Shown here: positions 36,420 to 41,910 of the stretch, in pieces
Layout: every line of letters begins with the position of its first letter
Position numbering within the stretch: position 1 is the first letter of the stretch
Source: Thermomicrobiaceae bacterium
GTDB taxonomy: Bacteria; Chloroflexota; Chloroflexia; Thermomicrobiales; Thermomicrobiaceae
Length of the DNA stretch: 41,910 nt
Direction of reading: 5' to 3'
NCBI GenBank assembly: GCA_007133615.1
Contig: SLMJ01000279.1
Coordinates: 1 to 41,910, forward strand
Made by a program: the position numbers and the translations under genes
Notes under the pieces: model-generated
Told to the model about the DNA's origin: nothing
Database searches by the model: none
What the model saw: only the letters and a program-made list of their open reading frames with translations

Positions 36420-36527
36420 GTGTCGCGGTGTGGCGGCCCGAAACTTGCTCTACGTTTAGTGGGCAGGGGCGCCGCGTTGGCGCGTGCCCAACGCGGGGTG
36501 ACAGATGTCGAGCGTAGGAAGTTGTGA
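36420..36527 (+). CDS. Possible 35-codon leader peptide upstream of the TetR gene
   Basis: A GTG at 36420 has a perfect AAGGAG six bases before it and opens 35 codons ending in TGA at 36525-36527, one base before the TetR ATG at 36529. The predicted peptide is basic and Ala/Arg-rich, with no known match. Such spacing suggests translational coupling. However, the promoter at 36373-36402 would start transcription almost at the AAGGAG, so either that start or this ORF may be wrong. Confidence 0.3.
   Translation: MSRCGGPKLALRLVGRGAALARAQRGVTDVERRKL
36472..36496 (+). promoter_or_regulatory. Hairpin in the TetR leader
   Basis: CCGCGTTGG (36472-36480) and CCAACGCGG (36488-36496) form a perfect 9-bp stem with a 7-nt loop. 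It lies inside the possible leader ORF and overlaps GGGGTGA, the only ribosome binding site for the alternative ATG at 36505. It could control access to the start region. Confidence 0.5.
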
Positions 36528-36528
36528 A

Positions 36529-37116
36529 ATGTCGCGACAGGTGAAGGAATCAGCTCGTGATCGTGTCATTGCCGTAGCGGAACAACTGTTCAGCGATCGA
36601 GGTTACAAGGCGGTAACACTCCGGGATATTGCGGACGAACTGGGCATTCGTCAGGCATCTTTGTATCACCATTTCCCGAATGGAAAAGAAGAACTGTTTA
36701 TTGAGGTCACCGAGCGCGCGATGCTTCGACATGCTGAGGGAATGCGAGCGACGATCGCTGATGCTCCCGAGGACCTGGAATCGCAGTTGCAGGCGATTGC
36801 TCGCTGGATGCTCTCCCAGCCCCCGGTAGACATGGCACGGATGGTGCGTTCAGATATGGTGGAGATCGACGAAGTGCAGCGTCACAGGCTTATGCAGACT
36901 GCGCTAAGAAGCCTGCTTTTGCCAATCGAAGCGGTGTTCGATCGGGGAATCGACCGCGAAGGTTTGCGAGACGTTGGGCATAGTCGGTTGTTGGCCAGTT
37001 CGTTTCTGTCGATAATCGAAGCGATCCAGGTTTCGGTTCGCTTTAGCAGTCGCCAGCCAGAGGATATGGCGGATGAAATGATCAGTGTCGTAATGAACGG
37101 ACTTCGTGCTCGCTAG
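36529..37116 (+). CDS. TetR/AcrR family transcriptional regulator
   Basis: The 195-residue product has an N-terminal TetR helix-turn-helix (ARDRVIAVAEQLFSDRGYKA, then TLRDIADELGIRQASLYHHF) followed by an all-helical ligand-binding domain with no close signature. ATG 36529 has AGGAAG at 7 nt; an in-frame ATG at 36505 would add 8 residues. It is upstream of and co-directional with the carotenoid genes, with a 139 bp gap holding dyads that could be its operators. The inducer is unknown. Confidence 0.9.
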   Translation: MSRQVKESARDRVIAVAEQLFSDRGYKAVTLRDIADELGIRQASLYHHFPNGKEELFIEVTERAMLRHAEGMRATIADAPEDLESQLQAIARWMLSQPPVDMARMVRSDMVEIDEVQRHRLMQTALRSLLLPIEAVFDRGIDREGLRDVGHSRLLASSFLSIIEAIQVSVRFSSRQPEDMADEMISVVMNGLRAR

Positions 37117-37255: not shown

Positions 37256-38308
37256 ATGGAAACTCCGGGCAAAACATTCTGGATGTCTCCCACACGAGCC
37301 TTGCGGGGTGCCAACGGCATCGTTGCCGGTGCGCGACAGACTGGCAACATTTCATGGACTGCCACCCGCTCGTTCGTCGATGACTTTTTCGCACCGCGAA
37401 CTGACACGGAACAGGTGATGGCCACCCACGCTCGCACCTTCCGGTTTGCAACCCGATTCCTTCCCACGGATTATCGCGATCCAACTCTCAGGCTCTACGC
37501 GTTCTTCCGAACCCTGGACGATCTGGTTGACGATTCGCCCAGCGATCCCGACAGCAGGCTGAAGGTCACTGCGGAAGTCGATGCCTGGGCTGAGTGGTTT
37601 CAATCCGGCAGGCAGTCGCCTGCACCCCGACCGTTGATGGGTCGGGATATTTCACTGATTTGCAGCACTTATGACATCCCGTCCCGCACATTCCTCGATT
37701 TTCTGGATGGGATGCGAGCCGACCTGCATTCCGAGACGCCTGCAACGCGCGCCGACGTCGAGCATTACAGCTATCAGGTTGCCTCAACGGTCGGCATCAC
37801 GATGGCGCATGTGTTTCGGGCGACTGGCAGCAGCGCAATCTCCGCCGCAACCCGTCTTGGAATTGCCATGCAGCTTACGAACATTCTCCGCGACGTCGGC
37901 GGAGATCTCGCCCGCGAGCGGGTGTATCTCCCACTCTCGTTGCTCGAAAAGCACAATCTGTCGGTTGAGGACGTTCGGACAAACTGGATCGATGGAGTGG
38001 GCCCGGATGAACGCCTGCGCGGGGCGATTCAGGAGATGATCTTCTGGGCAGACGAACACTACGCCGCCGGAATTTCCGGCATTCGACTCCTGCCCGAAGA
38101 CGTGCGAATGCCGATTCTCATATCCGCGCGTCTCTATCAGCGGATCCTCAGGCAACTGGAGCGGAATGATTGTGATTCCCTCCGGAAGCGGGCGGCAACC
38201 ACTGGCTGGCAGAAACTGAGTGAAACCATGCGCGCCGCAATTGATGTCGAGCGTCCCGACTCAGGAATCCATTCCGAGGTGAAGGAGACGCGCGTCGATG
38301 CACGCTAA
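37256..38308 (+). CDS. crtB: Phytoene/squalene synthase family protein (probable phytoene synthase)
   Basis: The enzyme condenses two prenyl diphosphates head to head, the first committed step of carotenoid synthesis. The 350-residue product has both Asp-rich motifs: DDLVDD (88-93) in YAFFRTLDDLVDDSPSDP and DVGGD (213-217) in LTNILRDVGGDLARERVYLP. It has about 40 extra N-terminal residues compared with common CrtB. The start is ATG 37256 with a poor ribosome binding site; ATG 37283 is possible. It overlaps the following hydrolase gene by 11 bp. Squalene synthase is less likely given the neighbours. Confidence 0.92.
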   Translation: METPGKTFWMSPTRALRGANGIVAGARQTGNISWTATRSFVDDFFAPRTDTEQVMATHARTFRFATRFLPTDYRDPTLRLYAFFRTLDDLVDDSPSDPDSRLKVTAEVDAWAEWFQSGRQSPAPRPLMGRDISLICSTYDIPSRTFLDFLDGMRADLHSETPATRADVEHYSYQVASTVGITMAHVFRATGSSAISAATRLGIAMQLTNILRDVGGDLARERVYLPLSLLEKHNLSVEDVRTNWIDGVGPDERLRGAIQEMIFWADEHYAAGISGIRLLPEDVRMPILISARLYQRILRQLERNDCDSLRKRAATTGWQKLSETMRAAIDVERPDSGIHSEVKETRVDAR

Positions 38309-39116
38309 CTGGTTCGATTCCGACCGACATCGTCCATTCGATGAAGGGAGCGGTGAACGCTCGGCATTGCTGATCCATGGCTTCATGGGAACGCCGGCTG
38401 AAATGAGACCGCTCGCGAAATCACTCCGTTCGATTGGATATCGCTCGGTTGGACCGTTGTTGCCCGGATTCGGAGAGCGGATTAGCGAGCTCCCGGAAGT
38501 CGGGAGGTCTGACTGGCTGTCGGAGGCATCGTCGCAGTGGGACGATGTCCACGGTAACGGTGCTCCCAGTGTGCTAATCGGGTTCTCGATGGGAGGGGCC
38601 ATCGCGATTCATCTCGCCCACCGGCGGCCACCCGACCGTCTCATTCTCGTCGCGCCGCTCTGGAAGCTTCTTGGTGGTGACCCGAAACTCCGCCTGCTAC
38701 CGCTCGTGAAGCGGTTCGTATCGAGCGTGAAGCCGTTTGCCGGTGCAGATCTGAGCGATCCGGAGATTCGCCGGTTTTTCAACGAGGCAATGCCGGACCT
38801 CGATCTGGATGACCCGGTTGTGCAGCAGCACCTGCGCACCGAGGTGGAACTGCCGACCTCCACGCTGGATGAGTTGCGACAAATGGCTGATCAGTCCGGC
38901 GAGCTGATTGCGGACATAACGGTACCAACGCTCATTCTGCAGGGAGTGAACGATCAGTCAGTTCGTGCAAGCGATACTCGGGAGCTCTCCCGACGAATGG
39001 GGCGCAACGTCCGGCTCGTCGAATTGCCGGGTGATCACATGCTCGTGTCATCGGAGAAGGAAACCTGGCAGTTCGTGCAGGAGACGGTAATCGACTTCGT
39101 GCGAGGAGACGACTGA
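38298..39116 (+). CDS. Alpha/beta hydrolase (carboxylesterase-like)
   Basis: The 272-residue product has the oxyanion region LLIHGFMGTP, nucleophile elbow GFSMGG (Ser97), Asp219 in LILQGVNDQSV and His247 in ELPGDHMLV, with a cap segment near 120-200. It resembles small carboxylesterases/lipases and lacks a signal peptide. Placed between crtB and the glycosyltransferase and overlapping both genes, it probably acts on a carotenoid ester, an acyl donor or a precursor; this is inference. The ribosome binding site GAAGGAG lies within crtB. Confidence 0.88.
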   Translation: MHANWFDSDRHRPFDEGSGERSALLIHGFMGTPAEMRPLAKSLRSIGYRSVGPLLPGFGERISELPEVGRSDWLSEASSQWDDVHGNGAPSVLIGFSMGGAIAIHLAHRRPPDRLILVAPLWKLLGGDPKLRLLPLVKRFVSSVKPFAGADLSDPEIRRFFNEAMPDLDLDDPVVQQHLRTEVELPTSTLDELRQMADQSGELIADITVPTLILQGVNDQSVRASDTRELSRRMGRNVRLVELPGDHMLVSSEKETWQFVQETVIDFVRGDD

Positions 39117-40258
39117 TGGCTCGTGCGGTTCTGACGGTTATCGCCGTAATTCAGACGATTCTAGCAATTCAGTTTGCGCGACGAGTGTGGCGAACGATCA
39201 GAGGAAAGCGTATTTCCGCCGAACCAGCCGCTGCCCGGACCGGGTCTGTTTCGGTCATCGTTCCAGTGCTTAATGAAGTTCACCGAGTTGGGCAATGTCT
39301 GGAATCACTTCTCGAGCAAGGCGCTCCTGTAGAAGAAATCCTTGTTGTGGACGGTGGTTCAACGGATGGGACAGATCTGCTGGTCAGTCGGTATGCGGAA
39401 CGCGATCAGAGGGTGCGCCTTGTCCGCACCGGACCCATTCCGGATGGCTGGAACGGGAAAGCGTTCGGTCTCCAGGCAGGGCTGGATCATTCATCCGCGG
39501 AGGCGAAGTGGATTCTGACGGTCGATGCCGACGTTCAGGTGCGCTCGTGCGGCATCAATCGAACCGTGGCCTTTGCGGAATCCGAACGTGTTCCGGTTTT
39601 GAGCGTTGCGACTACTCAGATTGCCAACTCACCCGGGTTGAGCGCAGTTCATCCGTCGTTGCTAAGCACGCTGGTATATCGATTCGGCGTGCCGGGACAT
39701 GTCGCGCGCACGCTGGACGACGTTCAGGCCAACGGTCAGTTTGCCCTCTACGATCGCATTGCACTCCTTCGAGTCAACGGGTTTGAGGTTGCTCGGGACT
39801 CGATCTGTGAAGACATCACGATAGCCCGGCACCTGTTTCTCTCCGGCTATCAGGTCGGATTTTACGAAGGCGATGATGTCGCCGTCACAGAGATGTATCC
39901 AGACGCCGTCAGTTGCCTGCAGACCTGGCCCCGGTCACTCGCCCTGCGCGATCGGTTCATGCCGAATGCCGGTGCAACCGGATTACTCTCACTGGCCTTC
40001 CTGCAGGTGATGCCGCTGATTGCGACGTTGCTTCTCCCGCGCTCGATTCAGCCGGGCTATTTCACCATGGTCAATCGAATTCTCTTCGGCGTTCGGCTCG
40101 GTATCGCGTTCGGCACGCGTCGGGCCTATGAGCGACCGTTTCGCACGTACTGGCTGTCACCACTGTTCGACCCGGTGACGCTCGTTTTCTACGTTTCGAA
40201 TCTGTTGCGCCGAACCCACGTCTGGCGTGGCCGCCAGCTTGTTTCCAGGGAGTCATAA
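39116..40258 (+). CDS. Membrane GT2 glycosyltransferase, probable carotenoid glycosyltransferase
   Basis: The 380-residue product has an N-terminal membrane helix (about 3-20), a GT2 domain with SVIVPVLNE, VVDGGSTDGT (Asp79), GWNGKAFGLQAG, TVDADVQ (Asp137, Asp139) and the catalytic-type ED at 232-233 (ICEDITIARHL), then two to three C-terminal hydrophobic segments. The GWNGK loop and topology match CrtQ/CruC-like transferases that add sugars to carotenoids. The ATG shares one base with the hydrolase stop (TGATG). The donor sugar is unknown. Confidence 0.85.
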   Translation: MARAVLTVIAVIQTILAIQFARRVWRTIRGKRISAEPAAARTGSVSVIVPVLNEVHRVGQCLESLLEQGAPVEEILVVDGGSTDGTDLLVSRYAERDQRVRLVRTGPIPDGWNGKAFGLQAGLDHSSAEAKWILTVDADVQVRSCGINRTVAFAESERVPVLSVATTQIANSPGLSAVHPSLLSTLVYRFGVPGHVARTLDDVQANGQFALYDRIALLRVNGFEVARDSICEDITIARHLFLSGYQVGFYEGDDVAVTEMYPDAVSCLQTWPRSLALRDRFMPNAGATGLLSLAFLQVMPLIATLLLPRSIQPGYFTMVNRILFGVRLGIAFGTRRAYERPFRTYWLSPLFDPVTLVFYVSNLLRRTHVWRGRQLVSRES

Positions 40259-40261
40259 ACG

Positions 40262-41884
40262 ATGCCATTCGGACTCAGTGACAAAGCGTCCAACCGATGG
40301 ACCGCGGGATTGATCATCGCCCACATTGCGGCGCTGGTATTCGGCCTTCTCGGCCTTCTCATCGCGGTTCCGAACCCACACCTCTGGGCAGACAGCGAGA
40401 TGGGTGTGCGCGTGTACTCCTGGGGAATGCAGTACGCCGGCGGATCGCACATCGTCTTCGCTACGGCGGCCATGCTGCTGGTTGGAGTGCGTTACCTCGG
40501 CTTACGGCGGACGTCGATCTTCTTCGCAATTACATGCGTGATTTCTCTCAGTGCCGAACTCATCGGCACAACGACGGGCTTCCCGTTTGGTGAGTACCGG
40601 TACACGTCCGGACTGGGTTATCAGATCCTCGGCGAAGTTCCGTTTACGATACCGCTGTCCTGGTTCTACATGGGACTTGCGTCGTACGTCCTGGCGATCG
40701 TGCTGATCGGCACTGGCCCGGGCTGGAAGCGGCCGCTCGCCTCAGTCTTCCTCGGATCAATACTCCTGACGATCTGGGATCTCGTGCTCGACCCTGCAAT
40801 GGCGCACCAGCAGCTGGACGTCCGATTCTGGGTCTGGGAACAGGGTGGGATCTACTTTGATATGCCGGCTCAGAACTTCCTGGGATGGATTCTCACGGGC
40901 TTCCTGTTTATCGGACTCAGCCGCATCGTCTGGGGTAGTGACCCGCCGTTGACCAGTGGGCTGGTCCGGGTGTCGTTCATCATCTATCTGGCGAACCTGA
41001 TCTTCGCAATGGTGATCAGTGCGGCAGTCGGTCTCTGGTGGCCGGTGCTCATTACGGTGATCATCGGTGTGATTCCGGCTGCAATTGCACTACTTGCCGC
41101 AGAAGGCTGGCCGGACGGTGAAGCGACCGATGCGCACCTGCGGGATGACGACACGGTTCAACGTGTTTCTCGCGGTGTGATGACGCTCGGTGCAAGGCTA
41201 TTTCTCTGGCGGAATTCGTCAGCGGTTCGGCAGGATGGACTTGAGAACATTCCGGCGTCAGGGCCGGCGATTCTCGTATCGCGGCATTATCACCACCTGC
41301 TCGATGGCTGCGTGCTGCAGACCAGTGTCCCGCGGCCAATCCATATCATCGCCGCGATCGACTGGGCGGAGACCGGCCAGAAACGCCGCTTTCTGGAGAC
41401 TGCCTGCCGAATGGCCCGGTGGCCGATGGTTGTCAGACCGGATTCACAAGGTGCGGAGCGGTTCTCCGACACCGAGCGCGCAGCGCTGCTTCGTGTTGCG
41501 TTTCGTGAGTCGGTCGAATTGCTGACGAGCGGAAGAATTCTAGTCATTTTCCCGGAAGGCTATCCAACGGTCGACCCGCACGGCTCGCGCAAGACCAGGG
41601 AGGATGAACTTCTGCCGTTCGATCCTGGCTTTGTGTCGATCGTCCGGGCGGCCGAGCGTCGTTCCGGGTTCCACATTCCGCTGATTCCGGTTGGGTTCAA
41701 CTACTCCAGAGCATCGGATGCCGGCTGGGACATCCAGATGCGAGTCGGCGCCCCGATCTATCTGGACACCTATTCATCAGAATCATCGCTGATCACAGAT
41801 CTGACTTCCCGGGTGCAGTCTCTTTCAGAGCCTGAACCAGTAGCGGTCCGCGGTGACGTTCAACATGTCACGGAGACATCATGA
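40262..41884 (+). CDS. cruF: CruF-type carotenoid hydratase fused to a PlsC-like acyltransferase
   Basis: The 540-residue product joins two families. Residues about 1-280 form a membrane domain of seven to eight segments matching the DUF422/CruF carotenoid 1',2'-hydratase family, with TTGFPFGEYRYTSGLGYQIL, WDLVLDPAMA and WVWEQGGIYFDMPAQNFLGW. Residues about 310-520 form a soluble acyltransferase with SRHYHHLLDG (342-348) and FPEGYPTVDPHG (430-441). The ATG is 4 bp after the glycosyltransferase gene. The likely outcome is hydration and acylation of the carotenoid or its sugar. The first acyltransferase motif departs from HX4D. Confidence 0.88.
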   Translation: MPFGLSDKASNRWTAGLIIAHIAALVFGLLGLLIAVPNPHLWADSEMGVRVYSWGMQYAGGSHIVFATAAMLLVGVRYLGLRRTSIFFAITCVISLSAELIGTTTGFPFGEYRYTSGLGYQILGEVPFTIPLSWFYMGLASYVLAIVLIGTGPGWKRPLASVFLGSILLTIWDLVLDPAMAHQQLDVRFWVWEQGGIYFDMPAQNFLGWILTGFLFIGLSRIVWGSDPPLTSGLVRVSFIIYLANLIFAMVISAAVGLWWPVLITVIIGVIPAAIALLAAEGWPDGEATDAHLRDDDTVQRVSRGVMTLGARLFLWRNSSAVRQDGLENIPASGPAILVSRHYHHLLDGCVLQTSVPRPIHIIAAIDWAETGQKRRFLETACRMARWPMVVRPDSQGAERFSDTERAALLRVAFRESVELLTSGRILVIFPEGYPTVDPHGSRKTREDELLPFDPGFVSIVRAAERRSGFHIPLIPVGFNYSRASDAGWDIQMRVGAPIYLDTYSSESSLITDLTSRVQSLSEPEPVAVRGDVQHVTETS

Positions 41885-41910
41885 CAGTAGTTACTGAAAC
41901 ACCAGCGACA
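41881..41910 (+). CDS. Start of a further gene in the carotenoid run (cut by the window end)
   Basis: An ATG at 41881 overlaps the CruF fusion stop as ATGA and opens MTVVTETPAT before the sequence ends. GGAG six bases upstream serves as ribosome binding site. Ten residues cannot identify it. A phytoene desaturase (crtI) would fit because none is present in the window, but this is a guess from context. Confidence 0.6.
   Translation, partial: MTVVTETPAT

Follow-up and report, generated by a model that had tools for sequence, protein, structure and literature searches.

A CruF–acyltransferase fusion protein of the T. roseum trd_1162 type, a probable carotenoid-tailoring enzyme, in a Thermomicrobiaceae carotenoid cluster

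The window analysed here, a 41,910-nucleotide stretch of Thermomicrobiaceae DNA, carries near its end a single gene that joins a CruF membrane domain to a PlsC-type acyltransferase. With a probability of about 0.82, its product is a bifunctional carotenoid-tailoring enzyme of the Thermomicrobium roseum trd_1162 type that serves the synthesis of an acylated carotenoid glycoside; the reactions, their order, the acyl donor and the pigment are predictions. This is the best explanation because both domains score above their cut-offs, the cluster is conserved, key residues are invariant, amino-acid change is constrained, the acyltransferase fold resembles those of PlsC and PatA, the genome encodes a separate PlsC, and both the pigments of T. 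roseum and the cyclase searches agree with it. Counted against it are the NCBIfam scores of the CruF half and of the neighbouring glycosyltransferase, which lie below the equivalog cut-offs, and the HX5D instead of HX4D spacing in the acyltransferase. The features are collected in Table 1.

Table 1. Features of the carotenoid cluster and of the fusion protein (positions in the window)
Feature	Position	Strand	Evidence
TetR-family regulator, cluster head	36505..37116	+	PF00440; position kept in L030, L031, L032, L035
Phytoene synthase crtB	37256..38308	+	PF00494 E=4.6e-64
Alpha/beta hydrolase	38298..39116	+	domain search; cluster position kept in Thermomicrobiales
GT2 glycosyltransferase	39116..40258	+	closest NCBIfam model CruG, 256 bits, short of its cut-off of 600 bits
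cruF-acyltransferase fusion gene, 540 aa	40262..41884	+	single open frame; two Pfam domains; full length kept in relatives
CruF / PF04240 membrane domain, residues 17-277, eight predicted long helices	40310..41092	+	PF04240 E=4.4e-64; NF045693 278 bits (below equivalog cut-off); pLDDT mostly 80-96
Linker, residues 278-320	41093..41221	+	low-confidence 284-295, then helix 298-318 (model); alignable among same-genus proteins
PlsC-type acyltransferase domain, residues 321-523	41222..41830	+	PF01553 E=5.1e-14; invariant columns; Foldseek best match PlsC 5kym
Next gene start (ATGACAGTAGTT...), cut by contig end, probably crtI	41882..41910	+	same-genus synteny

Results and Discussion

Domain architecture and the CruF half

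The first-pass annotation had described an uninterrupted frame of 540 codons that places a DUF422/CruF domain and a PlsC-like acyltransferase in the same protein, next to a GT2 gene, and each part of this description is borne out. The frame runs from its ATG to its stop codon with zero in-frame stops, is preceded immediately 5' of the start by a ribosome-binding-like CAGGGAG, and begins 3 nt after the GT2 gene. The domain search proposed at that stage matched both families within the single 540-residue product: PF04240 at residues 63-272 with 216.7 bits (gathering cut-off 25 bits) and PF01553 at residues 323-479 with 52.6 bits (cut-off 23 bits). The first of these matches excludes an N-terminal half unrelated to DUF422. 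In the AlphaFold model (mean pLDDT 83.6, pTM 0.74), the eight long helices of the CruF half are followed by a short loose linker and then by an alpha/beta domain.

As judged from its sequence, the N-terminal half is a member of the CruF / PF04240 family, and hydration of a psi-end is predicted for it. The closest NCBIfam model is that of CruF (NF045693), with a score under the equivalog cut-off of 400 bits. A cyanobacterial CruF reaches 423 bits with the same model, and the other fused and split Chloroflexota members reach 149-276 bits; since the model was trained on the cyanobacterial enzyme, a score below its cut-off weakens strict equivalence, not family membership. Cyanobacterial CruF proteins (from Pseudanabaena and others) are about 39-47% identical to this half and, unlike the fusion protein, are devoid of an acyltransferase half. 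Five catalytic-type residues of the CruF half (E99, D173, D177, N205 and W209) are invariant in the alignment of 19 fused proteins. A PDB sequence search with this half returned zero matches, and a Foldseek fold search gave no credible PDB match.

The acyltransferase half

The C-terminal half is assigned as a PlsC-type (LPLAT) acyltransferase on the basis of PF01553 and the predicted PlsC fold. In Foldseek searches with the predicted structure, the best match is PlsC (5kym, E=4.5e-6, probability 1.00), followed by a weaker match to PatA, an enzyme that acylates a mannose (PMC4792965). The predicted fold is like that of both proteins, from which this half differs in its HX5D motif, HX4D being the usual PlsC-type spacing, and in being carried on a CruF membrane domain. 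Motif I reads RHYHHLLDG, in which H342 and D348 define the HX5D spacing, and this HxHHxxD form is kept in fused and split homologues alike. An FPEG-type motif III is also present (FPEGYP, residues 430-435). The catalytic-type residues H342, H344, H345, D348, F430, E432 and P476 are invariant in the 19 fused proteins.

Membership of the PlsC superfamily, together with PlsC itself as the best structural match, would also suit an ordinary phospholipid (lysophosphatidate) acyltransferase that became tethered to CruF by chance and plays no role in carotenoid acylation. This reading is improbable, at roughly one chance in ten by our estimate, since the genome contains one other PF01553 protein, which has the standard HX4D motif and, at 111 bits, twice the score; these two properties identify it, by sequence, as the natural PlsC and phospholipid enzyme. 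In the carotenoid clusters of the relatives, moreover, the acyltransferase is either fused with or next to CruF and GT2, and acylated carotenoid glycosides are made by T. roseum (PMC2615216), both of which argue for carotenoid tailoring.

Somewhat less probable still is that one of the halves is catalytically inactive and does no more than anchor the other in the membrane or scaffold it. The deviation of motif I from HX4D points in this direction, as does the faster divergence of the acyltransferase half within the genus (63-64% identity, vs 77-86% for the CruF half). However, neither half shows any variation in its motif residues, and SalA and fungal GPATs are published cases of the HX5D spacing (PMC8319176, PMC4207751).

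Conservation among relatives

The whole fusion architecture is found in two same-genus genomes with 74% and 70% identity, and in other Chloroflexota, isolates included, with about 39-48% (41-48% within the same family and order). The nearest named relatives are Thermomicrobiaceae and Sphaerobacteraceae MAGs, which places the window in the Thermomicrobium/Sphaerobacter lineage of Chloroflexota. Full-length unbroken homologues also occur in Ktedonobacterales and in one Herpetosiphonaceae MAG, and the isolates that carry the full-length fusion include Thermogemmatispora species, Ktedonosporobacter rubrisoli and Thermalbibacter longus. Both Pfam domains were recovered in all ten further proteins tested. 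In a survey of 251 sampled Chloroflexota genomes at a threshold of E up to 1e-25, matches were obtained in 24, several of which encode the fusion. The first-pass annotation had called for a survey of this kind. The fusion is regular in carotenoid clusters of the Thermomicrobiaceae type and of Ktedonobacterales.

The continuous linker, alignable in the two same-genus genomes (G002 and G003), excludes a frameshift or missing stop joining two genes. Loss of a stop codon or a frameshift in metagenome assembly is accordingly rejected as the origin of the fusion and has next to no probability: although errors are possible in a source genome of 412 contigs, the same stop-free full-length frame recurs in independent genomes, isolates of Thermogemmatispora, Ktedonosporobacter and Thermalbibacter among them, is present in a two-contig genome (G005), and is reported for T. 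roseum (PMC2615216).

In the same-genus comparison, dN/dS is about 0.07-0.11 in the CruF half, and silent sites are saturated in the acyltransferase half; judged from these alignments, amino-acid change in the fusion protein is constrained relative to silent change. As a separate observation, Thermogemmatispora-like Ktedonobacteria carry a second CruF-acyltransferase fusion (L127-L131, L144, L145), 34% identical to the product of 40262-41884.

Fused and split forms

A family within the same order carries separate yet adjacent CruF and acyltransferase genes, which overlap, lie a few bases apart or, in three genomes, share a reading frame. The concatenated tree of CruF and acyltransferase needs three changes between the fused and split states; nevertheless, a single fused clade is not rejected by the AU test (p 0.131), and there may have been one fusion event or more. 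In three members of the order (L005, L008 and L034), the CruF and acyltransferase frames are in phase, with one stop codon between them, and from their sequences these pairs look as if they had recently split or were about to fuse. It is conceivable, though rather doubtful, that the two genes were joined or re-split more than once in Chloroflexota, that their joining channels hydration, glycosylation and acylation together with the GT2 enzyme, and that the HX5D acyltransferase is specialised for carotenoid sugars.

Gene cluster and genome context

The cluster runs in the order tetR, crtB, alpha/beta hydrolase, GT2 and cruF-acyltransferase fusion, and in the fused loci examined GT2 lies directly upstream of the fusion. 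Only the first 29 nt of the following gene lie on this contig. In two same-genus loci (L115 and L116), the fusion is followed directly by crtI and then by ispH, and another contig of the same genome (C13 of G000) opens with a 5'-cut crtI and then ispH; this synteny suggests that the cut gene is probably crtI. The alpha/beta hydrolase between crtB and GT2 is conserved in the clusters of Thermomicrobiales, and none was seen in those of Ktedonobacterales; its role is possibly in acyl transfer or turnover. In Thermalbibacter longus (L012 / L030), the GT2 upstream of the fusion extends over two overlapping frames, which reflects a frameshift or a sequencing error.

Lycopene cyclases were sought in the genome with two models. 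On checking, the two best candidates among the PF05834 matches were FAD oxidoreductases that resemble geranylgeranyl reductase or FixC, and PF18916 gave zero matches. These searches fit pigments that probably have linear carotenoid ends.

Proposed function and known systems

In the proposed scheme, the N-terminal CruF domain would hydrate the C1',2' double bond of a psi-end. The GT2 enzyme encoded just upstream would attach a sugar to a carotenoid hydroxyl (1' or 2'), and the C-terminal PlsC-fold domain would use acyl-CoA or acyl-ACP to place a fatty acyl group on this sugar. The end pigment would be an acylated carotenoid glycoside, probably linear-ended. Such a route had been suggested from the sequence at the outset, and the domain, cluster and structure evidence supports it as likely, the reactions themselves being those we infer. 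No biochemistry for any fused member was found in the literature.

The closest known system is trd_1162 of T. roseum, described by Wu et al. in 2009 as a 1,1' hydroxylase whose C-terminal domain is an acyltransferase; this domain was presumed to place acyl groups on the sugars that the adjacent glycosyltransferase attaches (PMC2615216). The carotenoids of this organism are very hydrophobic, and saponification releases a polar glycoside; Salinibacter performs the two steps with separate proteins (PMC2615216). By its published description, trd_1162 matches the present protein in domains and their order, in its neighbours (crtB, GT2 and crtI), in proposed function and in bacterial lineage, and differs in genus. 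Here too, CruF precedes the acyltransferase within a single protein, and the gene has GT2, crtB and, by same-genus synteny, crtI as neighbours. The CruF, CruC/CruG and CruD proteins of Salinibacter, Herpetosiphon and Chloroflexus have the same three predicted activities and lead to carotenoid glycoside esters of the salinixanthin type; in these systems, which also make a cyclic end, hydratase and acyltransferase are listed as separate genes.

The first-pass assertion of separate proteins in known pathways is consequently wrong: the same fusion, neighbourhood and proposed function were published for trd_1162 in 2009 (PMC2615216), and the function that the first pass proposed repeats the published one. 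The fusion type has been known since then and is common in relatives of T. roseum, so that the claim of novelty fails.

Conclusions

The additions made here are modest, namely the wide spread of the fusion, the split-but-adjacent genes of sister lineages and the HX5D (HxHHxxD) motif, and the finding does not overturn current views. Carotenoid glycoside esters are believed to make membranes stronger, and a hydratase/acyltransferase encoded by a single gene could be of use in pigment engineering. For the biology of the group, a little-noticed annotation from 2009 is confirmed and extended: fused hydratase-acyltransferases are regular members of the carotenoid clusters of Thermomicrobiales and Ktedonobacterales.
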